A stretch of 16,551 nucleotides of DNA from a bacterium (GTDB lineage Bacteria; JAMCPX01): the NCBI GenBank assembly GCA_021789095.1, contig JAJYJX010000035.1, positions 1 to 16,551 on the forward strand, in the 5' to 3' direction. Below, piece by piece: positions 2,326 to 16,551 of this stretch. The position numbers and the translations under genes were made by a program. The notes beneath the pieces were generated by a model. The model had not been told where the DNA came from and searched no databases. It saw nothing but the letters and a program-made list of their open reading frames with translations. Each line of letters begins with the position of its first letter. Position 1 is the first letter of the stretch.

Positions 2326-3009
2326 TTAACGGGTTGTTTCTGCTGTTACGGCAAAATTCCTGGAGAAGACTTTTGATACTTCCAGTTCGTCTTTCGTCAG
2401 CGGCTCATCAGTATATTCTATGTTAAGGGAAAGCCTGAGTCCTTCAAGCAGTGCATTGATAAGTCTGTCCACCGGGACATGATGATCTTTCATTATCGAT
2501 CCCTGCTGAAGCAGTATGCCCTTTGCCCTTTTCTGCGCACTTCCAACCAGTTTCTTTCCCTGTAGGGATAGTTCATATATCCATGCCTTGTTAAAGCATA
2601 CCGGCTCATTCTGGTGCTGATCACTGCTGCCGTACTGTACATCGACACCGCACAATTTAAATCCATGTTTAAGACCGCCTGTGATCATCCTGTAACTGTT
2701 CATCAGGGCGCTGTTTGGACCAAGATAACTCTCGGGCAGGACAAGGGCGTAGCATAGATCCCGGTCATGCATTACAGCACCGCCCCCTGTAGGCCTTTTT
2801 ACAATCTCTAACCCGGCGTTCAGGAACTCTTCGGGCAGTTTATCCGTCCTCTGATTCTTGCCTATCGAGATACATCTTCTGTTAAAGGTAAAAAATCTTA
2901 ATGATGCAGTTTTGTTGTTTTCCAATGCCCTTTTGAAGAGCATCTCATCGACTGACATGTTTACTGACGGATCAAAATTTGAAAAACCGAGGTATCTGAT
3001 CTGATTCAT
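2326..3009 (-). CDS. lipM: LipM/LplA-family octanoyl- or lipoyl-transferase
   Basis: A cofactor transferase of the biotin/lipoate A/B ligase family, about 227 residues. Such enzymes attach octanoate or lipoate to the lipoyl domains of 2-oxoacid dehydrogenases or the glycine cleavage H protein. Numbered from the TTG at 3018, the protein has RPTGGGAVMH (75-84), the acyl-pocket signature of the family, and VCFNKAWIYEL followed by GKKLVGSAQKR (140-164). The Cys at 141 sits where LipM-type octanoyltransferases carry the catalytic cysteine, and the Lys pair at 155-156 matches the conserved lysine. This favours LipM over an ATP-dependent LplA, but by eye only. I chose the ATG at 3009, one base after the accC stop; the in-frame TTG at 3018 would overlap accC by 8 bases. 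No clear ribosome site is present, so translation is probably coupled to accC. Octanoyl-ACP, the LipM substrate, comes from the pathway that accBC feed. Confidence 0.85.
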   Translation of the reverse strand: MNQIRYLGFSNFDPSVNMSVDEMLFKRALENNKTASLRFFTFNRRCISIGKNQRTDKLPEEFLNAGLEIVKRPTGGGAVMHDRDLCYALVLPESYLGPNSALMNSYRMITGGLKHGFKLCGVDVQYGSSDQHQNEPVCFNKAWIYELSLQGKKLVGSAQKRAKGILLQQGSIMKDHHVPVDRLINALLEGLRLSLNIEYTDEPLTKDELEVSKVFSRNFAVTAETTR

Positions 3010-3010
3010 G

Positions 3011-4345
3011 CTAAACAAACTTGTCTATAAACCTGGTTGATATGTTGCCGAGCAGGAATTCCTTGCTTGATAGTATCTTTTTATGAAGCGGTATGTTGGT
3101 TTTTATGCCATCTATAATGAATTCATCGAGGGCCCTGAGCATTCTTCTGATAGCGCTGTCCCGATCCTCTGCCCATACTATAAGCTTTGCGATGAGTGAA
3201 TCATAATAGGGAGAAACCTCATACCCGGAGTAAGCAAAACCATCAACCCTGACCCATGGGCCTCCGGGGGGGACATACGCACGTATTGTTCCTGTAGACG
3301 GAACAAGTGTTTCCGGGTCCTCTGCATTTATTCTGCATTCTATTGCATGCCCCCTGAGTTTTATATCCTTCTGTGACAGGGACATTCTCTGTCCGCCGGC
3401 TATATTTATCTGTTCTGCCACTATGTCAATGCCTGTTACAAACTCCGTTACGGGGTGCTCTACCTGAAGGCGGGTGTTCATCTCCATGAAATAGAATCTT
3501 CCTTTTTCATCGAGAAGGAACTCAACAGTGCCAACCCCCCTGTAATTTATGTGCCTTGTTATCTTTACGGCTGCATCGTTTATCCTGTTCCTGAGTTTAT
3601 CGTCAACCGCTATTGATGGAGATTCCTCTATAAACTTCTGATGCCTTCTCTGGATGGAACATTCTCTCTCTCCCAGGGCAATGACGTTCCCGTTGCCGTC
3701 ACCTATGATCTGGATCTCTATATGGCGTACTTTTTCAAAGTACTTTTCAATGTAGAGCGATGCACTTCCGAATGCCATTTTGGCCTCAGCCCTTGCAATC
3801 TTGATTATGTTTGGTATCTGGTCTTCGGCATAGATGATCTTAATCCCTCTGCCGCCTCCGCCTTCTGCAGCCTTGATAACGAGTGGAAGGCCTATGTCTT
3901 TTGCAATTCTTATAGCGTGCTGTTCGTCCTCTATTTCCTGAAATGTACCCGGCAATACCTGTATGCCGATCTTATCCACATATTCCCTTGCCTTTAGCTT
4001 GTTGCCCATGAGTTCTATGTCCTCGGGCTTCGGCCCTATGAACTTGATGCCTGCTTCCTCGCAGACTTCCGCAAACCCAGGATCTTCCGAGAGAAATCCA
4101 TAACCCGGATGTATGGCGTCAGCTCCCTTTATCTGTGCGGCGCTTATGATGGCAGGGGCATTGAGATAGCTGTTCTTGCTCTGGGCAGAGCCTATGCATA
4201 TTTTTTCATCAGCCAGCTGGGTGTGAAGGGCATTTTTATCTGCAGTGGAGTAAACCGCGACCGATTTTATTCCAAGCTCTTTCAGAGCCCGGATAATCCT
4301 TATTGCAATCTCGCCCCTGTTTGCAACGAGCACTTTTGAGAACAT
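3011..4345 (-). CDS. accC: Biotin carboxylase subunit of acetyl-CoA carboxylase
   Basis: AccC uses ATP and bicarbonate to carboxylate the biotin carried by AccB, the first half-reaction of malonyl-CoA synthesis. At 444 residues it is close to the E. coli length. The ATP-grasp glycine-rich loop is EGGGGRGIKI (161-170), the catalytic block is RRHQKFIEESPS (233-244), and the carboxylase core is MEMNTRLQVEHPVTE (287-301), with Glu288, Asn290, Arg292 and Glu296 as in the known enzyme. The C-terminal lid domain starts with GHAIECRINAEDP. The ATG at 4345 follows a GGAAGG ribosome site by seven bases and lies three bases after the accB stop. No active-site change was noticed. accA and accD are not in the window. 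Confidence 0.98.
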   Translation of the reverse strand: MFSKVLVANRGEIAIRIIRALKELGIKSVAVYSTADKNALHTQLADEKICIGSAQSKNSYLNAPAIISAAQIKGADAIHPGYGFLSEDPGFAEVCEEAGIKFIGPKPEDIELMGNKLKAREYVDKIGIQVLPGTFQEIEDEQHAIRIAKDIGLPLVIKAAEGGGGRGIKIIYAEDQIPNIIKIARAEAKMAFGSASLYIEKYFEKVRHIEIQIIGDGNGNVIALGERECSIQRRHQKFIEESPSIAVDDKLRNRINDAAVKITRHINYRGVGTVEFLLDEKGRFYFMEMNTRLQVEHPVTEFVTGIDIVAEQINIAGGQRMSLSQKDIKLRGHAIECRINAEDPETLVPSTGTIRAYVPPGGPWVRVDGFAYSGYEVSPYYDSLIAKLIVWAEDRDSAIRRMLRALDEFIIDGIKTNIPLHKKILSSKEFLLGNISTRFIDKFV

Positions 4346-4348
4346 GCA

Positions 4349-4792
4349 TCAGCCTTCCGGATCAATGATAAATAAAGGTTCACCGAATTCTACAGGTTCG
4401 CCGTCCTTTTTGAGGATCTGTTTGACGGAACCGTCGGCATCGGCTTCTATCGCATTCATAAGTTTCATGGCTTCAACTATACCTATGGTCTGTCCCTTTT
4501 TGACCCTGCTTCCTATCTCTACAAAAGGCTTTTCACTCGGTGACGGCGCGCAGTAGAATGTTCCGACGAACGGAGAATTTACGCTGACAAGCAATTTTTC
4601 GGCAGTTGTATCGACCTCGGCTTCGGGCTGAACCTCAGCGGGTCTTGCCTGTTGCACTTCCTGTGCCTTTTTTACTCTGCCGGAAGATGATCTGACGATC
4701 CTTATTTTTTTATCGCCATGACTGTACTCTATTTCTATGATATCTTTGCCCTCTATAAGCTCAAGGAGTTCTTTTACATCATTAACATCCAT
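4349..4792 (-). CDS. accB: Biotin carboxyl carrier protein of acetyl-CoA carboxylase
   Basis: AccB carries the biotin that shuttles CO2 between AccC and the AccAD carboxyltransferase. The 147-residue protein has the usual three parts: a short N-terminal segment that docks on AccC (1-37), a Pro/Glu/Gln-rich flexible linker (about 40-65), and a C-terminal biotinyl domain (about 68-146). The biotin-acceptor Lys is residue 110 in VEAMKLMNAIEAD. The stretch APSPSEKPFV just before it is the protruding thumb seen in bacterial AccB. The ATG overlaps the stop of the upstream peptidase gene by one base (TAATG), which implies translational coupling. Confidence 0.97.
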   Translation of the reverse strand: MDVNDVKELLELIEGKDIIEIEYSHGDKKIRIVRSSSGRVKKAQEVQQARPAEVQPEAEVDTTAEKLLVSVNSPFVGTFYCAPSPSEKPFVEIGSRVKKGQTIGIVEAMKLMNAIEADADGSVKQILKKDGEPVEFGEPLFIIDPEG

Positions 4793-5859
4793 TATGCCTC
4801 CAGGTTTATAACAGGATTGTTCCTTCTTGTCAGGACTTCTTTGCCCCGGTCCGACAGGTATAGCATACTCTCTATCCTTATACCACCCCAGTCGGGGATA
4901 TAAACACCGGGTTCAATCGTAAAGACCATGCCGTTTTTTAAAATATCCTTGGATCTGTGGTTAATCGAAGGGGATTCATGAACGTCCAGCCCTACGCCGT
5001 GACCGAGAGCATGACCGAAATATTTGCCGTAACCCTTTTTATCGAGGAATTCCCTTGCGACACTGTCAAGCTTTGATGCACGCATGCCTGCTTTTGCGGC
5101 GTCTATTGCCCTGGTGTGAGCTTCGAGCACCGCATTGTACAGCTTTCTGGCATCATCACTCCAACTGCCTGCAAAAAATGTATGTGTTTCATCGGTATGG
5201 TAACCTTTATATACAGCGCCAAAATCGCACAGCATCAATCTTTTACCTCTCAGTTTTATGGCGTTCGATGGTATTGCATGCGCATAAGCCGCCCTCTCGT
5301 CAAAAGCGACTATAGTGTCAAATGAAATATCATCAGCGCCTGCATTTATGAGCTCAAGGTTCAGCATTGCTGCCACCTGTTTTTCTGTCATATCAGGGGT
5401 AATCGTGTTTATCAAGAGATTGAGCGCCTTACCCGAAGCCCTTGCGGCGGTTTTAATGTAACCCACTTCTTCCGCACTTTTGACAGCTCGTATCTTAAAC
5501 AGTTCCTGTTCTATAAAACGGAACTTCTGCCTGTCCAGCTTTGATGTAATGAGCATAAAATCCCTGTGCAAAAGCGCCGAGCCGTCAATACCTATGGTAT
5601 GGTATCGCTTCAGCGATCTGTTCAATTCAACCACCGGCTGCCTTGCTTCAATGACCTCAGCAGCCTTTACCCGCTGCTGTGCATAGATGCTGAACCTCGG
5701 ATCAACGAACAGTTTTAATCCTGCAGTATCTATTAACAGGAAGCCCTCATCGTATTCGTATCCGGAGAAATAAAGTTTATTGGCCCTTGAAATAATAACA
5801 ACTGCATCAAGCCTCAATCTGGACAGGAGTCTGAGCAAGCTTTTTAATGACGGTTTCAT
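4792..5859 (-). CDS. M24 family Xaa-Pro-type aminopeptidase
   Basis: A creatinase-fold metallopeptidase (M24B), 355 residues, the short form common in bacteria (YqhT/PepQ-like). It should remove N-terminal residues before proline or split Xaa-Pro dipeptides in the cytoplasm. An N-terminal creatinase-like domain (1-125) precedes the pita-bread catalytic domain. Metal ligands can be assigned by motif: Asp212 (CDFGAVYKG), Asp223 (HTDETHTF), His287 (GHGVGLDVHESP), Glu316 (TIEPG) and Glu330 (GGIRIES); His294 is also conserved. All are intact, so the enzyme should be active. In many bacteria a gene of this family is followed by efp before accB; here efp is absent and the stop codon overlaps the accB start. 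The start lies 27 bases downstream of the Roadblock gene. Exact substrate (PepP or PepQ type) cannot be told. Confidence 0.9.
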   Translation of the reverse strand: MKPSLKSLLRLLSRLRLDAVVIISRANKLYFSGYEYDEGFLLIDTAGLKLFVDPRFSIYAQQRVKAAEVIEARQPVVELNRSLKRYHTIGIDGSALLHRDFMLITSKLDRQKFRFIEQELFKIRAVKSAEEVGYIKTAARASGKALNLLINTITPDMTEKQVAAMLNLELINAGADDISFDTIVAFDERAAYAHAIPSNAIKLRGKRLMLCDFGAVYKGYHTDETHTFFAGSWSDDARKLYNAVLEAHTRAIDAAKAGMRASKLDSVAREFLDKKGYGKYFGHALGHGVGLDVHESPSINHRSKDILKNGMVFTIEPGVYIPDWGGIRIESMLYLSDRGKEVLTRRNNPVINLEA

Positions 5860-7850: not shown

Positions 7851-9158
7851 ATGTTTGAGTTTCTTGAGGAAAAGATTACAAAACTTTTCGATAAACTGTC
7901 TAAAAGGGGCATGCTTTCAGAAAAGGATGTCGATGATGCCCTCAGGGATATAAGGATTGCTCTGCTCGAAGCGGATGTTCATTACTTGGTTGTAAAGCAA
8001 CTGCTCGACAATATAAGGCAGAAGGCCATGGGAGAAGAATTGTCCCGCAGTATTGATCCGTCAAAGTATCTCCTCAGACTGCTCAAGCAGGAATTGATAA
8101 ATATAATGGGACCCGCTGTGCAGATGAAAACAGACGGTGTCATTGTGCTTATAGGCCTGCAGGGTACGGGTAAGACGACAACTGCGGTCAAACTCGCAAA
8201 ATACATGAAAGAAAAAAAAGGACTCAATCCATATCTTGTATCCGTTGATTTTAACAGGCCTGCTGCGCAGGAACAGCTTATAACACTCGCAAAAGCGAAC
8301 GGGTTCCCTGTTCATGGGGATATCCGGGCCAAAGGATACGACGGGCTTAAGGATCTGCGGCTTTCCTCTGCGCGCGCAGGATGCGATTTCATCATTGTGG
8401 ACACAGCGGGCAGGCTGCATATTGATACTGAACTCATGGATGAGTTAAAACAGGTAAAGGATGCCTTGAAGCCGACCCAGACAGTACTTGTAATTGATTC
8501 AATGATGGGGCATGATGTGCTCAGGATGGCGCAGGGATTTATGAACAGCGTGGGTTATGACGGAGCAATATTTACAAAATTTGAGGGTGACACAAGGGGC
8601 GGAGCTGTAATCTCTTTTAAAAAGATCATTGATAAGCCTATATTTTACACAGGGATTGGGGAATCTGTTTCTGCTCTTGAACCCTTTGTCCCGGACAAGC
8701 TTGTGTCAAGGATGATCGGCAGCGGGGATATAGAAGGACTGGTGGAAAAGGTATCGGAGGTTGTAACAGATACCGATGTCGAACATGCGAAGGGGATTGC
8801 AAAGGGTAAATTCACCTTCCATGATTTTATAAAACAGCTTAAAATGGTAAAAAGGCTCGGTTCGATCGAATCGCTGTTTGATATGGTGCCGGGTTTTGGC
8901 AAATTGAAAGGCAGCGTCAAAGCGGACACCGTGAAAAAAGATATGAAGGTATACGAAGCCATAATAAATTCAATGACAACCAAGGAGCGGGATAATCCCG
9001 ATATACTGAACGGTAAAAGAAAACAGCGAATAGCAAACGGCAGCGGAACAAAGGTAGAAGATGTTAACAGGCTTATAAAGCGTTTTTATGAATCACAGCG
9101 GATGATGGACATTATTCAAAAAGGTGGTATAAAAGGCATACAAAGATTTCTACACTAA
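7851..9158 (+). CDS. ffh: Signal recognition particle GTPase Ffh (SRP54)
   Basis: Ffh binds 4.5S RNA and signal sequences of nascent membrane proteins and docks with FtsY to target ribosomes to the membrane. Its 435 residues cover an N domain (1-90), G domain (95-295) and M domain (320-435). G1 is GLQGTGKTT (102-110), the catalytic block DFNRPAAQEQL keeps Asp133, Arg136 and Gln142, G3 is DTAGR (184-188), and the M domain has INSMTTKERDNPDIL and RIANGSGT for RNA binding. Several normally strict positions differ: the G4 motif reads TKFEG (242-246) instead of TKLDG, GQDA is GHDV, and LGMGD is IGSGD. The M-domain finger region has few methionines. It heads the translation operon, which is common. 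Identity is certain; the divergence is real but probably tolerated. Confidence 0.96.
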   Translation: MFEFLEEKITKLFDKLSKRGMLSEKDVDDALRDIRIALLEADVHYLVVKQLLDNIRQKAMGEELSRSIDPSKYLLRLLKQELINIMGPAVQMKTDGVIVLIGLQGTGKTTTAVKLAKYMKEKKGLNPYLVSVDFNRPAAQEQLITLAKANGFPVHGDIRAKGYDGLKDLRLSSARAGCDFIIVDTAGRLHIDTELMDELKQVKDALKPTQTVLVIDSMMGHDVLRMAQGFMNSVGYDGAIFTKFEGDTRGGAVISFKKIIDKPIFYTGIGESVSALEPFVPDKLVSRMIGSGDIEGLVEKVSEVVTDTDVEHAKGIAKGKFTFHDFIKQLKMVKRLGSIESLFDMVPGFGKLKGSVKADTVKKDMKVYEAIINSMTTKERDNPDILNGKRKQRIANGSGTKVEDVNRLIKRFYESQRMMDIIQKGGIKGIQRFLH

Positions 9159-9174: not shown

Positions 9175-9414
9175 ATGGTAGCAATAAGACTTAAAAAGTT
9201 TGGCAGAAAACATATCCAGAAGTACAGGATAGTTGTTGAGGATTCCCGTTATACATCCGGTGGAAGGGTGATAGAGGTTCTGGGCAACTACAGTCCTGAA
9301 ACACAACCTTATACATTAAAAATTGAAACAGATAAGATAAAAGAATGGATTAATAAGGGAGCTCAGGTCTCACCACGGGTAAGAACTTTACTGAAGGCTC
9401 AAAAGATCTTATAA
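9175..9414 (+). CDS. rpsP: 30S ribosomal protein S16
   Basis: A small-subunit assembly protein that binds 16S rRNA. The 79 residues match S16 throughout: MVAIRLKKFGRKHIQKYRIV, then the SPRVRTLL block near the end. The start is well supported by GGAGG (9163-9167) seven bases before the ATG. It lies 16 bases after ffh and 24 bases before the KH gene, the standard order for this operon. Confidence 0.98.
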   Translation: MVAIRLKKFGRKHIQKYRIVVEDSRYTSGGRVIEVLGNYSPETQPYTLKIETDKIKEWINKGAQVSPRVRTLLKAQKIL

Positions 9415-9438
9415 AGGCTCAAATAATAGAGGTGGGTG

Positions 9439-9672
9439 ATGAAGGATCTGGTAGAGAGTATAGCAAAACAGCTTGTGGATAAACCGGAGATGGTGGAGGT
9501 TAAAGTGATTGAAAGCGAGCATACATCAGTTATCGAACTCAAGGTAGACAAGGAGGACATGGGCAAGGTCATCGGCAGAGAAGGCAAGACGGCAAAGGCT
9601 ATAAGAACAATTCTTGGTGCTGCGGGGAACAAGCTTAAAAAGAGATACGTGCTGGAAATAGTTAACGATTAA
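9439..9672 (+). CDS. khpA: KH-domain RNA-binding protein (KhpA/YlqC family)
   Basis: A 77-residue single KH-domain protein. The GXXG loop is GREG (46-49) within MGKVIGREGKTAKAIRTIL, the classic RNA-backbone-binding element. In other bacteria KhpA binds many RNAs and may act with KhpB; its place between rpsP and rimM/trmD is conserved. I chose the ATG at 9439 because GAGGT (9429-9433) lies five bases upstream and the family typically begins MK-[ED]-LVE. A GTG immediately before it (9436) would add one residue. The usual next gene, rimM, is missing. Confidence 0.93.
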   Translation: MKDLVESIAKQLVDKPEMVEVKVIESEHTSVIELKVDKEDMGKVIGREGKTAKAIRTILGAAGNKLKKRYVLEIVND

Positions 9673-9718
9673 TAGATCTGCCTGATTTTTTTAACTTAAC
9701 TAAGTTTCATTTTATTTT
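9673..9718. other. 46-base AT-rich spacer where rimM is usually found
   Basis: This gap between the KH gene and trmD is strongly AT-rich, with a run of seven T and TTAACTTAAC-type repeats. No ribosome site precedes the trmD ATG and no stem strong enough for a terminator is visible. There is no room for rimM (about 170 codons) and no frame that resembles a remnant. Confidence 0.6.
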
Positions 9719-10465
9719 ATGCTTACATTTAAGATCCTTAGTATTTTTCCAAAATATTTTGTATCGCCTTTTATGGATGGCCTGCTGAAACAGGCCATAG
9801 AAAAGGGCAGTATAGTAATCGATGTTATAGATATAAGGGATTTTTCCAATGACAAGCACAGGACTGTCGATGATACGCCTTACGGCGGGGGTGCGGGTAT
9901 GGTCATGAAGCCCGAACCCATTGTGTCCGCTATTCAGCATGCAAAGGCGGATGAGAAGGATTATGCAGTGATTGTTTTTTCACCAAAAGGCAGGAAATTT
10001 GATCAGGGTACCGCAAAAAGGTATTCAAAGCATACCAGGTTCATACTTGTTTGCGGCAGGTATGAAGGTATGGATGAAAGGGTACCGGAATTCTACGCGG
10101 ATGAGGAATTATCAATAGGTGACTATGTACTTTCAGGCGGGGAAGCAGCTGCTCTTGTTTTTATAGAGAGTATAGCAAGGTTGATGCCCGGCTATATGGG
10201 CAATAAAGAATCGGTTGTTGATGAATCATATGAGAACAACCTGCTTGAGTATCCCCAGTATACAAAGCCAAGGGTGTTTGAAGGCCACGAAGTGCCGGGG
10301 GTATTATTGTCAGGGAATCATAAGGAGATACAGCGCTGGCGGCTGGAACAATCGGTAAAGATTACCGCCATGAGGCGGCCCGATCTTTTGACAGCGGCTA
10401 AGAAGGATAAGCATGTTTTAAGCATTATCGAAGCGATAGACAAAGGAAATGAGGAGGGAAAATGA
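9719..10465 (+). CDS. trmD: tRNA (guanine-N1-)-methyltransferase TrmD
   Basis: TrmD methylates G37 of tRNAs reading CNN and related codons with S-adenosylmethionine, which prevents frameshifting. The 248-residue length is typical. The deep trefoil-knot motifs are present: [13 protein letters not shown] (51-63), [15 protein letters not shown] (108-122), [15 protein letters not shown] (131-145) and [16 protein letters not shown] (169-184). By eye Glu169 falls where E. coli has the proposed general base Asp169, with an Asp just before it; this may be ordinary family variation. The ATG at 9719 lacks a visible ribosome site, but the protein begins as the family does ([10 protein letters not shown]). 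It overlaps rplS by four bases (ATGA). Confidence 0.97.
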
Positions 10466-10874: not shown

Positions 10875-12848
10875 ATGGTAATAAAAGAATTCATCCTTCA
10901 GGGCATCAGGAAATTTAAAGAGCCTGTAAGATTCCAGCTTGACGATGGTTTGAATGTCCTCTGCGGAGGTAATGAAAAAGGAAAGACAACCATATCCGAT
11001 GCACTTTTTTTTCTTCTGTCGCTTGCCGGAGATAAAGATTACAGGGAAAGCCTTAAAAATGAGGGCGCAAAAGATATAAGACTCGGCGTAACATTCAAAG
11101 AGGGTCCGGATACATTCAGGCTCCTTATGGATGTGACTTCAGAGGCCGTACTTCTTTCCAAATATAACCCCGAGTCAAAAAAGTTTGCCACTGTTTCCAA
11201 GGATGCCGGTGAAATACGGGGTTTTTTTAAAAGGGATCTGCTTTTTAAGCCGCTTGATAGGTACAGGGACTTGTACATGATTAATTCATACAATCTTGTG
11301 AATCCATACAGTTACGAAACAAAAACGACACAAGCAGAACCGGTACCTTTTACCATGGGAAGCGATCAAAACGATTACCAGAATGATTACATGGACCAGA
11401 TGGATGAATTTGAACCGACATCCTTTACAGGCAGGGATGATCTGCAGCAGGATGACATGACAAAAGAGGAGATACAGTCCAGGATAGAAGAGCTTGAAAA
11501 CGATCTCAAGGTATCCTCAAACGCGGCTGCCCATCAGGATAAGATAGACCAGATGGAATCCAGCCTTGCCGATATACAGGGCAGAATAAACGCAATAGAT
11601 AACAATGCTCAAGAGCTTAAAGAAACAGAGAAGCAGGTTAACGAACTGAACAGGTTTTCGGATCTGCCGGATGATATAGAGAAAAGAATAGACGAGTACG
11701 TTCAGTTTGAAGCAAGGATGAAAACGGAAATAGATACTATAGAAAGACAGAAATCACAGTATGCATCTGTCAGTACAAGCACCCCGCCGTTTTACAAAGA
11801 CAGGATATTTATTGCAGGTGGAGGTGTTGTGCTGTTATTTATAGTGGCCCCCGTGCTGCTTACTTTTTTTGCGGGTTCGTGGGGCATGTATCTTTCAGCA
11901 GGCGTTTTTGCAGGGCTGAGCATGATGGGTTATGCATTGTGGAATGATGCAAGCAAAAGGGGTGAAATTAGAAAGAGGCAGGATGCCGTTTCGGCACTCG
12001 AAAAACAGATAAAAGAACAGAAGAAAAAATATGATATAGAAGGTTCTGTTATAACAAGCCTTGTAAGTTCAATGAAGCTTGAATCTCCTTCTGCGCTGAA
12101 GGAAGGAATAAAAAAATACAAAGAGGTTCTTGATCAATTTGCGAATTCAAAGAAAAAATACAATGCAGTTGCCTCTGAAGGCAACGCAGAGCTTCTGAAG
12201 AAACAGGAAGCCCAGATAAAATCGGACATAGAGAATCTTCAGGAACAATTAAGATCAATGACAGGTTCAACAATGGATCCATATTCAATATCCCGGCAGA
12301 TAGAAGCACTGAAGAAAAGATTAAACACCACAGAAGACAGGCCGGTACGGAAGAGAAGGGAACCGGTTGTCCGTAAACAGGAAATACAAGCCGGAAAACC
12401 AGAGATCGTTCCAGTACCTGTATTCCTCAGCACCATGAACACTCTATCGGAGTTGACCGGCGACAGCAGGGACCGCATCATGTCTCTTACTGCTTCCAGG
12501 GCCAGTACCCATTTCAGCACATTAACCAATGGTGCATTTCAGGAACTTTCGTTTATCGGTGATAGGATTGTTCCGATCAGGAATTCAGGCAAAGAACTCG
12601 GGTTCAGCGCGTTGTCCGGTTCTCTGAAGGAAAAGGGCATATTTTCAATATTCTTATCAATGCTGGAGATTTCCGTGGAAAAATGGCCATGGCCGGTTGT
12701 TATGGACGAACCGTTTGTAACACTTGATGAAGCTAACAGGGCAGCAGTGTACGGCATGATTAAAAACCTTTCAAAAGAAACTCAGGTGATATATTTGACA
12801 AGGGATGCCTCTATAAAACCGCTTGCAAATGTATTTATACCCCTGTAA
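10875..12848 (+). CDS. Membrane-anchored SMC/SbcC/YhaN-like coiled-coil ATPase
   Basis: A 657-residue P-loop ATPase of the RecF/SMC/SbcC type. The N-terminal lobe begins VIKEFILQGIRKFKE and has Walker A GGNEKGKTT (31-39). The C-terminal lobe has a weak ABC signature LSGSLKEKG (580-588), Walker B PVVMDEP (607-613) and a D-loop-like TLDEANR. Between them are an acidic Asp/Gln-rich insert (155-195), a coiled coil (about 195-300), two hydrophobic helices (about 311-332 and 336-356) and a second coiled coil (360-485). The two arms are of similar length, so the membrane hairpin occupies the place of an SMC hinge. YhaN-type proteins are the nearest family I know, but no SbcD/YhaO nuclease gene is adjacent. 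It is probably read with rplS; AGG before the ATG is a weak ribosome site. Role unknown; DNA repair, chromosome handling or envelope attachment are possible. Confidence 0.85.
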   Translation: MVIKEFILQGIRKFKEPVRFQLDDGLNVLCGGNEKGKTTISDALFFLLSLAGDKDYRESLKNEGAKDIRLGVTFKEGPDTFRLLMDVTSEAVLLSKYNPESKKFATVSKDAGEIRGFFKRDLLFKPLDRYRDLYMINSYNLVNPYSYETKTTQAEPVPFTMGSDQNDYQNDYMDQMDEFEPTSFTGRDDLQQDDMTKEEIQSRIEELENDLKVSSNAAAHQDKIDQMESSLADIQGRINAIDNNAQELKETEKQVNELNRFSDLPDDIEKRIDEYVQFEARMKTEIDTIERQKSQYASVSTSTPPFYKDRIFIAGGGVVLLFIVAPVLLTFFAGSWGMYLSAGVFAGLSMMGYALWNDASKRGEIRKRQDAVSALEKQIKEQKKKYDIEGSVITSLVSSMKLESPSALKEGIKKYKEVLDQFANSKKKYNAVASEGNAELLKKQEAQIKSDIENLQEQLRSMTGSTMDPYSISRQIEALKKRLNTTEDRPVRKRREPVVRKQEIQAGKPEIVPVPVFLSTMNTLSELTGDSRDRIMSLTASRASTHFSTLTNGAFQELSFIGDRIVPIRNSGKELGFSALSGSLKEKGIFSIFLSMLEISVEKWPWPVVMDEPFVTLDEANRAAVYGMIKNLSKETQVIYLTRDASIKPLANVFIPL

Positions 12849-12997: not shown

Positions 12998-14680
12998 ATG
13001 AGCCTAATAGGTAGCCTTGAAGATCTGGCACTGGGGGATATACTACAGATCCTTAGCTTAAGCAGGCGATCGGGTATCCTCTATCTTACCAGGAAAGGCG
13101 AAGAAGGTAAAATTGTCTTTATCGAAGGCCAGATTATTTCTGCATCAAGCACCCTGCACCCGAACAACATACTGGAATTACTCAGGGGGGGAGACATACT
13201 ACAGGATAAACAGCTTGCCGAGATAACAAACAGGCTGAAAACAGGCAATAAAACCGATGCAAAGGCATTCCTGATTGAATCAAGCATGGTAAAAGCCGAT
13301 GTTATTGAAGACATCGTACAAAACTATATTACCAACACCATTTTCGATTTTTTTACATGGGAAGAAGGCAATTTCAATTTTGAGATAACAGAAAATCTGA
13401 AGAAAGTTTATAAGCCCGGTCTTGACAGCTACCTTGCAGCGCCACTGAACCCGCAGTATGTGGCAATGGAGGGCACAAGGAAGATCGATGAAAAGAGGAG
13501 GGATGTGGGCATTGAGGAGCACCGTAAGGACGAATTTACATCCCAGATAAGAGAAATGGAGGAACTGATCATTGTCGATCAAAGTGCAGATTCTCAGACT
13601 TTCCTAAAAGACAGCTTCGAATCAAGGGGATTCAGAACATCTTCCATGGCGGATTTAAATGCCCTTTATGAATATCTTGAGACAATAAAGGATTCTCCAA
13701 GATTTCCTATGATCGTCGTGGATCTTACCATTCCCAAAACAAGCGGAGAAGGGATGCTGGGAGGGGTGGAACTGCTCAGATGGGCATCGGATAAAAAGTT
13801 AAAGATACCTGTTGTCCTGTTAAGCAATATAAACAATGAAGAAGTCGTAAAAGAGGCCCAGATGCTCGGCGTGTATGCCTATCTAAAAAAACCAAAAAAG
13901 TTTTCAAGAGCATCACCCGACATTGATGCGTACATGGAAATACTTGAGAAGATTACGTCCCTTTACAGGCAGTATCAGGAGGCAGGTTTTACGTTCAAGC
14001 CCGGCATAAAGGAGGTCAAAGCTGCAGCCGAGGAAACGCACGAAGGGGATGATACGGGGTCCAGGTTTGTCCAGGACATCACGGAAGAACTTACCAGGGA
14101 ATTTCAGGACGAAGTAGAACTACTGCCGGAAACCACAGGACAGAAGGTAGATACAAGCCCGGGCCTGCTTACACTCAAATCTATGATAGATGAACTTATG
14201 AGCCCCAACTTTACCGGAGAAATAACCCTGTTGATTATGAGGTTCGCAAGCGAATTGCTGAACAGGGGTGTACTTTTCCTTGTTGCCAAGAACAAACTCA
14301 GGGGGCTCGGTCAGTTCGGTCTTGAAGCATTCTTTGATAACCCGAATGTAGTGGTTAAAAAGATGGAAATAGAAATAGAGGAGCATTCCCTGATAGGCAA
14401 GGTTCTTAAGTACAAAACACCCGTTAAAGAATCTCCCGAGCAAACCGAAGGGAATAAGAAACTCCTGAGCCAGATAGGCGGGGACTGGCCGGCAGAGTCC
14501 TATGCCGTACCACTGTTAACTGCAAACCGGGTTGCAGCCATATTTTATGGCGATAATGTGCCTTTTAAGAAAAGGGTGTCGGATATGACAACATTTGAAA
14601 TATTCATGAGCCAGGCAAGTGTTGTTATGGAAAAGGCTTATCTGGAGAGAATACTAAGGGAACGGAAGGATGAGCAATGA
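12998..14680 (+). CDS. PATAN (DUF4388) - receiver - GAF-like signalling protein
   Basis: A 560-residue cytoplasmic regulator. Residues 1-135 match the DUF4388/PATAN domain (SLIGSLEDLALGDILQILSL, SRRSGILYL, GKIVFIEGQIISA). Residues 188-302 form a response-regulator receiver: phosphoacceptor Asp242 in VVDLTIPKT, Ser276 in place of Thr, and Lys298-Pro299. The usual acidic pair reads VDQS, so one acid is Gln195, and the loop after Asp242 is longer than usual. Residues about 388-555 look like a GAF domain by pattern only, with a mostly charged linker before it. PATAN domains occur in two-component and motility regulators, often in Deltaproteobacteria-like genomes. The ribosome site GAGGAG is 13 bases before the ATG, longer than usual, but the N-terminus fits the domain. 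The end overlaps cheY by four bases. Likely receives a phosphoryl group from the adjacent CheA; output unknown. Confidence 0.82.
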   Translation: MSLIGSLEDLALGDILQILSLSRRSGILYLTRKGEEGKIVFIEGQIISASSTLHPNNILELLRGGDILQDKQLAEITNRLKTGNKTDAKAFLIESSMVKADVIEDIVQNYITNTIFDFFTWEEGNFNFEITENLKKVYKPGLDSYLAAPLNPQYVAMEGTRKIDEKRRDVGIEEHRKDEFTSQIREMEELIIVDQSADSQTFLKDSFESRGFRTSSMADLNALYEYLETIKDSPRFPMIVVDLTIPKTSGEGMLGGVELLRWASDKKLKIPVVLLSNINNEEVVKEAQMLGVYAYLKKPKKFSRASPDIDAYMEILEKITSLYRQYQEAGFTFKPGIKEVKAAAEETHEGDDTGSRFVQDITEELTREFQDEVELLPETTGQKVDTSPGLLTLKSMIDELMSPNFTGEITLLIMRFASELLNRGVLFLVAKNKLRGLGQFGLEAFFDNPNVVVKKMEIEIEEHSLIGKVLKYKTPVKESPEQTEGNKKLLSQIGGDWPAESYAVPLLTANRVAAIFYGDNVPFKKRVSDMTTFEIFMSQASVVMEKAYLERILRERKDEQ

Positions 14681-15048: not shown

Positions 15049-16551
15049 ATGGAACAAAACAAGGCCACAAAAGAATTTATCGCTGAATCAGAAGAATTAA
15101 TAGATAAAATATTCAAGGATATTAATGAAATAGACACTGCGAGAAAAACAGGCAAGCCAAATCCGGATACCATAAACGATCTGTTCAGATCAGCACATTC
15201 GTTAAAGGGTATATCAAGCATGTTCGGTTTTAGGGAGATCACGGAGACCAGTCATAAGATGGAGGACCTGCTGGACAAGGTGAGATTGAGCAAGATACCC
15301 ATTTCAGACATCCTTATAAAAGCCCTGTATGCTTCAGGTGATACGCTCAGGACAATGATATCTTCTGAAGCGTTCGGGAAGGGTATGGATATAGAACCGC
15401 TGCTCACGCAGTTGAAGGAAGCTGAACTGGCAAAGCAGGAAGACAAGAAGGAGTCTCTGTTTTCGGAGCTCACGCTGAACAAGGATATTCTGTCCGTACT
15501 AACAGAGTACGAAGAGTCAAGGTTAAAAGAGAACATAAAGGACAGCAATAACCTCTTCAAAGTGGACGTGTCATTCAGCCTGATGAGCTTTGACAAAGAG
15601 CTCGCGGACCTGACAGCACAGCTCAAAGATTTCGGTGAGATCATTACAACCCTCCCGAGTACGACTGAAGCAAAGGAAGGAGAAATAAAATTTGATATCC
15701 TCCTGGGCACAAAGGAGTCCGAGGATAAGATAGTATCCGGCATTGATTTTAAAGACATAAAGATACAGAACATCAGGAAAGGTGCGGCTGTGCTGCCGGA
15801 CAAAAAGCCGCCGGTCGAGGAAGCGGTCACAACGAAGGGCGTTATGGATGAATCTGCATCCATTAAAGGAATCGCACAGACTGTCAGGGTGGACATATCA
15901 AGGCTTGATTACATTATGAATATTGTCGGTGAACTTGTGCTCGCAAAAACAAACCTTGTAAGGATATCGGAGAGTGTAAGACAAGAAATAGGATTCAAAA
16001 GTACAGCGGTAGATCTTGCCAAAACAATAAAAGAACTGGAGAGGAAACTGAAGGAGCTCCAGCTTGGTGTGCTTGAAATAAGGATGATACCTTTGAGCCA
16101 GCTTTTTGACAAGCTTACGAGAACAGCGACGAGAATAGCAAAAGGACTGAACAAGGAAATAGAGCTTGAATTCTACGGCGCCGATACAGAGCTCGATAAG
16201 CTCATCATAGAAGAATTGACCGATCCCATGATGCACATAATCCGCAACTCCATCGACCATGGCATAGAATCATCCGAAGAAAGGCTTGTTGCAGGCAAGC
16301 CGCAAAAAGGTAAAATTGTGATACGCGCCTATCAGAAGGGCAATCATGTGCTCATAGAGATAGAGGATGACGGCAGGGGTATTTCGCTGTCAGAGGTGAG
16401 AAAAACTGCCATAGGAAAGGGATTTCTTTCTCCGTCTGCAAAACCCGCAAAAGAAGAGCTTTTTAACATGATTTTTATGCCGGGATTCTCCACGAAGACC
16501 GACGTAAGCGAGGTTTCAGGCAGGGGCGTGGGTCTCGATGTTGTAAAAACG
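15049..16551 (+). CDS. cheA: Chemotaxis histidine kinase CheA (3' end outside window)
   Basis: A CheA kinase that links chemoreceptors to response regulators; 501 codons are present and the frame is still open at the edge. The N-terminal HPt (P1) domain has FRSAHSLKG with the phospho-accepting His50. Residues 165-250 (about) resemble a P2-like regulator-binding domain (FKVDVSFSL), flanked by linkers. The dimerisation domain is VRVDISRLDYIMNIVGELVL, and the ATPase follows: N box DPMMHIIRNSIDHGIE, G1 box EDDGRGI, and the F/G2 region FSTKTDVSEVSGRGVGLDVV at the window end. The CheW-like regulatory domain must lie beyond. The ATG at 15049 has only a weak GGA upstream (15040-15042), consistent with coupling to cheY. 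No kinase-critical residue is missing in the visible part. Confidence 0.95.
   Translation, partial: MEQNKATKEFIAESEELIDKIFKDINEIDTARKTGKPNPDTINDLFRSAHSLKGISSMFGFREITETSHKMEDLLDKVRLSKIPISDILIKALYASGDTLRTMISSEAFGKGMDIEPLLTQLKEAELAKQEDKKESLFSELTLNKDILSVLTEYEESRLKENIKDSNNLFKVDVSFSLMSFDKELADLTAQLKDFGEIITTLPSTTEAKEGEIKFDILLGTKESEDKIVSGIDFKDIKIQNIRKGAAVLPDKKPPVEEAVTTKGVMDESASIKGIAQTVRVDISRLDYIMNIVGELVLAKTNLVRISESVRQEIGFKSTAVDLAKTIKELERKLKELQLGVLEIRMIPLSQLFDKLTRTATRIAKGLNKEIELEFYGADTELDKLIIEELTDPMMHIIRNSIDHGIESSEERLVAGKPQKGKIVIRAYQKGNHVLIEIEDDGRGISLSEVRKTAIGKGFLSPSAKPAKEELFNMIFMPGFSTKTDVSEVSGRGVGLDVVKT

Follow-up and report, generated by a model that had tools for sequence, protein, structure and literature searches.

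An rplS-linked SMC/Rad50-like protein with arms of near-constant length and a predicted membrane hairpin at their apex

The gene at positions 10875..12848 (+) of the window, by which we mean the whole 16,551-nucleotide stretch analysed (contig 155 of a 2.15 Mb metagenome-assembled genome), begins with ATG and encodes a 657-residue protein of SMC/Rad50 type in which the two coiled-coil arms meet at a hydrophobic hairpin, predicted to lie in the membrane. The explanation we favour, at a probability of about one half, is that the protein serves as a clamp or tether anchored in the inner membrane, its heads fixed ~17 nm below: gated by ATP in the window's own family, and a pseudo-ATPase tether elsewhere.

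All parts of the protein are encoded on the plus strand. The N-terminal half of the ABC head (residues 1-145; 10875..11309) carries the Walker A motif GGNEKGKT (residues 31-38; 10965..10988), and is followed by a disordered head-proximal insert (residues 146-195; 11310..11459; pLDDT 32-52) and the ascending arm (residues 196-309; 11460..11801). The hairpin (residues 310-357; 11802..11945), delimited by hydropathy and orthologue conservation, comprises segments at ~311-330 and ~337-356. The descending arm (residues 358-487; 11946..12335) leads through a second disordered linker (residues 488-515; 12336..12419; pLDDT 35-38) to the C-terminal half of the head (residues 516-657; 12420..12845), which holds the ABC signature LSGSLKEKG (residues 580-588; 12612..12638) and Walker B, WPWPVVMDEPF (residues 604-614; 12684..12716). 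The original prediction had assigned Walker A to the N-terminus and Walker B to the C-terminus and had called the signature degenerate, and on these points it was right.

The fold was modelled with AF2 from 33 orthologues (mean pLDDT 81, pTM 0.47); an earlier model from eight close sequences (pLDDT 65, pTM 0.39) was too weak and is superseded by this one. Both halves of the head, and the arms, are mostly at pLDDT 80-97, and the linkers, here residues 147-193 and 487-512, are disordered (pLDDT <50). The ascending arm is modelled as helices 197-257 and 268-297; on the descending side a helix runs to 399 and is followed by helices 405-435, 438-462 and 469-485. As modelled, both ends of the protein join into one Rad50-like ABC head, which matches Pyrococcus furiosus Rad50 (4ncj_D) with a Z score of 28.8 and an rmsd of 3.1 over 282 aligned residues, the heads of SMC3 and SMC ranking closely behind; the best solved chains in a profile search are likewise Rad50 chains, none of the solved chains found there covering the hairpin. 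A head fold built from both ends places the protein, at the level of the model, in the SMC/Rad50-type superfamily of ABC ATPases. The Pfam matches of the window protein, to SMC_N (PF02463; 46 bits, cut-off 40), AAA_23 and AAA_15, are superfamily-level signals only. PF13514 (AAA_27, the YhaN family) stays below its curated cut-off at 16.1 bits vs 22, no NCBIfam equivalog comes near its cut-off in a search with this protein, and for the 16 members of alignment A2 Pfam and NCBIfam offer generic AAA, SMC or Rad50 models and nothing more specific: the rplS-linked branch has no name in any model of either collection.

The gene is present in all genomes of the window's family that were examined, the copy in G007 consisting of two fragments at contig ends. 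Beyond the family, full-length orthologues that share ~15-24% identity with the window protein are spread over at least six phyla, a count that relies on the grouping used by the search tool. The phylum of G035, which we take to be Myxococcota, apparently including cultured myxobacteria, has the gene in 158 of 193 genomes (E 1e-30 or better); given this frequency, and the strong constraint on hairpin and arms described below, we rejected the idea of a decaying pseudogene. Phylum-restricted searches recovered it in three of three genomes for the group of G047, G192 and G324, two of two for G157 and G295, two of two for G051 and G196, and two of five for G185 and G577; these four groups are phyla separate from one another, from the window's and from that of G035, and two further phyla are probably represented by G022 and G056.

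Two hydrophobic helices at the apex of the arms (311-356) were the central claim of the original prediction, and hydropathy and the model both bear it out. The strongest hydrophobic 19-mer of the protein is 311-329, with a Kyte-Doolittle mean of 2.73 that 16 of 20,000 shuffled versions of the sequence equalled; the model places residues 310-357 at the arm tip as two consecutive helices (310-340 and 343 onward, confidence 64-86), rather than burying them in a soluble domain. Nor do homologues dispense with the feature: a central hydrophobic region with at least one strong segment was found in 64 of 64 orthologues checked, and the pair in 57. Mean pairwise identity among eight family members is 0.665 for the hairpin, 0.654 for the N-terminal head, 0.51 for the C-terminal head and 0.55-0.58 for the arms, so that the hairpin is, in these eight sequences, conserved at least as well as the N-terminal head and better than the other parts. 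Its second helix is the best-conserved stretch measured (0.78), and G343, F345, A346, G347, G352, Y353, L355 and W356 are invariant in the family.

The first helix has hydropathy means of 2.4-2.7 over 19 residues, values typical of membrane helices; the second segment, ~337-356, is less hydrophobic (1.3-1.6 in relatives, and 1.2-1.7 in many members in a further measurement). The outer flanks of the hairpin are basic, KDR before it and KRGEIRKR after, and its short loop, FFAGSW, is uncharged; from this pattern we predict insertion in the inner membrane, and under the positive-inside rule the heads would be cytoplasmic. The same residues might be read as a buried helical hairpin by which soluble rods dimerise tip to tip, doing with hydrophobic residues what the zinc hook does with metal. 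We consider such an arrangement quite improbable: the moderate hydropathy of the second helix, the invariant GxxxG-like G343-A346-G347 and the limited AF2 confidence in the hairpin would all suit it, but the first helix is as hydrophobic as membrane helices are, the charges lie on both outer sides of an uncharged loop, and hydrophobic residues surround the whole segment instead of lining a single face.

The two predicted arms are present, though somewhat longer than supposed, at ~114 and ~130 residues rather than 105 and 125. A coiled coil rises 0.15 nm per residue, so arms of 114 and 130 residues would span 17-19 nm; the distance of ~15 nm first proposed between heads and membrane thus kept its order of magnitude and grew a little. 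Arm length proved to be nearly constant. With boundaries taken from the alignment of 33 orthologues, the ascending arm has 112-125 residues (117.5 +/- 2.5 in the distant ones, which are 15-23% identical to the window protein) and the descending arm 128-138, with one exception of 153, while the head-proximal linker ranges from 18 to 97 residues in distant orthologues and the second linker from 6 to 87 in orthologues, a 5-15-fold variation. Alignment-free measurement gave a similar picture: 115.3 +/- 3.2 residues from an arm-base motif (QFxLDGL-like) to the centre of the hairpin in 27 sequences, and 134.2 +/- 3.4 from there to a DxxxxxxEIxxLE-like motif in 22. In YhaN relatives, whose chains run from 600 to >1200 residues, the corresponding standard deviations are 70 (P-loop to hairpin) and 95 (hairpin to C-terminus), part of this contrast being due to the spans measured, which are wider than those taken in the rplS-linked branch. 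In these sequences, arm length within the rplS-linked branch is fixed across phyla, with a standard deviation of ~3 residues. The disordered head-proximal insert of some members (L063, L064, L034), all from the phylum of G047, contains long PGM/GMP-type repeats of Gly, Met and Pro.

The ATP site has not been kept so uniformly. Walker A and Walker B are present and conserved in the window's family, where G31, N33, E34, K35, G36, K37, T38 and T39 are invariant in all eight members and Glu612 of Walker B is replaced by Asp in four. The window protein lacks both the canonical LSGG signature, having LSGSLKEKG, and the H-loop histidine, the T-H motif being replaced by YLTRDA; none of the rplS-linked proteins has the canonical signature, and almost all are without the H-loop histidine as well. 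With Walker A retained, signature and H-loop gone and the Walker B Glu partly Asp, we conclude that ATP binding is conserved in the window's family and hydrolysis doubtful. Elsewhere Walker A is intact in the groups of G047, G157, G051 and G022, lost in G185/G577 and in G056 (K to R), and lost in nearly all Myxococcota-like members: it was seen in none of 24 re-read loci of that kind, one family there (G388, G404) retaining it. The tree requires at least four changes of Walker A state and, regain being unlikely, this amounts to at least three independent losses. Hairpin, arms and gene position persist where Walker A is lost, and the proteins outside the window's family that lack it are likely to be pseudo-ATPases. 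Residues invariant or nearly so over all 33 orthologues are Q9, R69, R82, L94, G315 and Q637; those of the N-terminal head may mark a conserved surface, and G315 sits in the first predicted membrane helix.

The place of the gene behind rplS, whose conservation had been left as a question for homologues, holds far outside the window's family. In the window, rplS (L19; 10462..10863, +) stops 11 bases before the SMC-like gene and shares an operon with ffh (7851..9158, +), rpsP (9175..9414, +), khpA (9436..9672, +) and trmD (9719..10465, +). It lies directly upstream in eight of eight full-length loci of the family; all distant full-length matches of the family profile adjoin rplS on its downstream side, as does a full-length relative outside the profile that was found later (G182). 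The same neighbour precedes the gene in 30 of 30 further loci, 29 from the phylum of G035 and one from that of G185, and in 27 of 28 diverse loci it lies 6-230 bases upstream, often with ffh-rpsP-khpA-trmD beyond it. On the other side, rnhB and/or yraN follow directly in 21 of these 28, at times overlapping. A promoter and terminator scan, whose overall counts were close to those in shuffles, placed no terminator on the plus strand in the gap that separates rplS from the SMC-like gene. A chance position was rejected since the rplS neighbour is common to six phyla, and horizontal spread since the position is constant; we take the branch to be vertically inherited.

Other features of these loci are recorded here for themselves. 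The next gene in the window, for a protein with DUF4388 and receiver domains (12998..14680, +), has this position in five family genomes and nowhere else; after it and a further receiver gene, a CheA-like histidine kinase gene (Hpt, H-kinase_dim, HATPase_c; 15049-16551) runs off the window end, and minus-strand ORFs at 15252-16260 were discarded as neighbour markers, being antisense to this open-ended gene. The window contains no scpA-like (kleisin) gene as a neighbour. Its operon is missing rimM, usual between khpA and trmD (9436-10465), and a RimM-like gene is present at that place in some distant relatives (e.g. G192, L064 3163-3714). In two phyla a conserved extra gene of ~190 codons (NRIYIGLLHYPVYNKTGEV...), possibly an RNA methyltransferase, stands between trmD and rplS (L063 4814-5395, L064 4555-5139, L035 3381-3956). 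G003, which belongs to the family, has a SecD-SecF fusion gene ~540 bases downstream of its SMC-like gene (L029 9582-12236). At 2326-5859 (-) the window has a lipoate/biotin ligase-family gene clustered with genes for biotin carboxylase, biotin carboxyl carrier protein and an M24 peptidase.

A role in translation or protein targeting suggests itself from this setting: the protein could hold ribosomes or SRP at the membrane, or could regulate the products of the ffh-rpsP-trmD-rplS operon. The strict position behind rplS, frequently with the rest of the operon upstream, is what one would then expect, as are a membrane hairpin, if the prediction holds, and a tolerated loss of the ATPase. Set against this are a fold that is the DNA-handling head of SMC and Rad50, the nucleic-acid genes rnhB and yraN downstream, and the common co-location of unrelated genes with ribosomal ones. 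We judge this role unlikely.

The proposal that YhaN-like proteins are the nearest relatives was borne out: hhalign of the 33-member alignment (A3) against 14 YhaN-type proteins (A4) gave a probability of 100 and an E value of 3.7e-48 over 633 columns, hairpin on hairpin. Comparison with E. coli SbcC gave a probability of 67 over just 86 columns, the first 86 residues. Like the rplS-linked proteins, YhaN/SbcE has a Rad50-like head, with homology over the whole length and, in most members sampled, a central hairpin, which is missing from three long YhaN-like proteins (G117, G272, G232) and from two SMC chains checked. The differences are these: YhaN keeps Walker A and a signature LSxGTxxQ, whereas the rplS-linked signature is degenerate and Walker A repeatedly lost; YhaN arms vary greatly in length, whereas those of the rplS-linked branch are fixed; and YhaN mostly lies beside yhaO, whereas no Mre11-like gene was found next to any rplS-linked locus searched, in keeping with the original prediction that no nuclease partner is adjacent. 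An Mre11-like (yhaO) gene adjoins 12 of the 14 YhaN-type genes (G304 and G248 are without one, and G147 is cut by a contig end), an estimate that is biased, some of these genes having been noticed because of that neighbour. One YhaN-type gene with a membrane hairpin, in G202 (L075 4174-7800), has Metallophos (Mre11-like) genes on either side of it.

On the head tree YhaN forms one clade (98/91), with the rplS-linked rows on the other side and SMC chains outside; support for the split is 65/52 in the careful tree, while a quick tree that also included E. coli SbcC gave SH-aLRT 95; the separation is modestly supported. In G035 a YhaO-YhaN pair occurs together with the rplS-linked gene, so that the two are not interchangeable in this genome. 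The rplS-linked proteins would act as a YhaN-type rod does, but as the Pfam cut-off, the clade and the nuclease neighbour all failed to mark them as YhaN, we filed them as a separate branch, sister to YhaN/SbcE (COG4717; PF13514).

Kinship with YhaN raises the possibility of a DNA-repair ATPase of YhaN/SbcE type at the membrane, acting with a nuclease from another locus, which might be a distant Mre11-like protein or, in genomes where their genes come next, YraN or RNase HII. The homology over full length, the Mre11-like gene beside most YhaN relatives sampled, the four Metallophos proteins encoded in the window genome and the adjacency of rnhB or yraN in several phyla all point this way, as does work on B. 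subtilis (Krishnamurthy 2010, as cited in PMC4205851) and the listing of yhaO and yhaN in the LexA/SOS set (PMC3896406). It remains improbable in our estimate, since no Mre11-like gene adjoins the rplS-linked loci searched, many members have lost the ATP site by which nucleases of Rad50 type are powered, and a YhaO-YhaN pair coexists with the rplS-linked gene in G035. The role of YhaN/YhaO itself has been termed poorly characterised (PMC6452273), and the literature consulted, an incomplete selection that did not take in the SbcE paper (Nucleic Acids Res 2010), describes neither the rplS-linked gene nor a membrane hairpin for YhaN.

Other known systems are more remote. SbcC/Rad50 shares the ABC head fold and the order head-arm-apex-arm-head, but the rplS-linked protein has a hairpin, no zinc hook (the window protein's sequence contains no CxxC), no Mre11 partner and much shorter arms. 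Bacterial SMC is alike in head fold and arm layout; the rplS-linked protein is half its size, lacks the canonical LSGGE and has no hinge domain, only the ~48 residues of the hairpin lying between the arms. Similarity to SMC-like defence ATPases, Lamassu LmuB among them, is confined to weak matches in the head (LmuB E 3e-14), and the window gene lies in a vertically conserved housekeeping operon without defence partners: no lmuA effector gene adjoins it, the neighbours being ffh-rpsP-khpA-trmD-rplS and signalling genes, and Lamassu-type defence was rejected on this context.

The clamp or tether that we prefer would work as follows. From a Rad50-like head, formed by both ends, two antiparallel arms of fixed length rise, as the computations show, to the hydrophobic hairpin, which takes the position that the zinc hook has in Rad50 and the hinge in SMC. 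Anchored by the hairpin in the inner membrane, two rods would stand side by side and their heads would dimerise ~17 nm below. In the window's family ATP binding would close the pair of heads over nucleic acid as the substrate and, with hydrolysis slow or absent, the result would be a long-lived clamp or tether, not a motor; in lineages without Walker A the same rod would be a constitutive tether. Since the rod persists without Walker A, the ancient core function is likely to have been spacing between membrane and ligand, and not hydrolysis. From the kinship with YhaN and Rad50, and from the rnhB and yraN operon of other phyla, the ligand would most likely be nucleic acid; ribosomes or SRP are less likely ligands, yet a real alternative because of the operon with ffh, trmD and rplS. 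The weak hydrophobicity of the second helix in several members counts against the clamp or tether, as do the modest support for the split from YhaN and the chance that linkage in an operon means no more than co-expression.

What the analysis adds to the original prediction, as far as sequences can indicate, is a branch apart from YhaN, arms fixed across phyla and loss of the ATP site in some lineages. SMC/Rad50 proteins are usually defined by ATP-driven engagement of the heads and by a hinge or hook at the apex; here is a widespread branch in which the apex appears to have been exchanged for a membrane hairpin and arm length is near-constant despite very large divergence. With the ATP site dispensed with in several lineages and the rest kept, one can ask which part of an SMC-like protein is useful without ATP. 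The constant place behind rplS, often before rnhB or yraN, suggests that a well-studied operon encodes a basic membrane-linked function. We tentatively suggest, as a possibility somewhat short of even, that these proteins form a family of their own with a conserved role that is mechanical rather than enzymatic, a membrane-anchored SMC-like ruler holding its ligand ~17 nm from the inner membrane, with ATP gating kept by some phyla and given up by others; if so, a single SMC-like family would offer a natural gradation between ATPase and pseudo-ATPase, with members in the genetically tractable Myxococcota.
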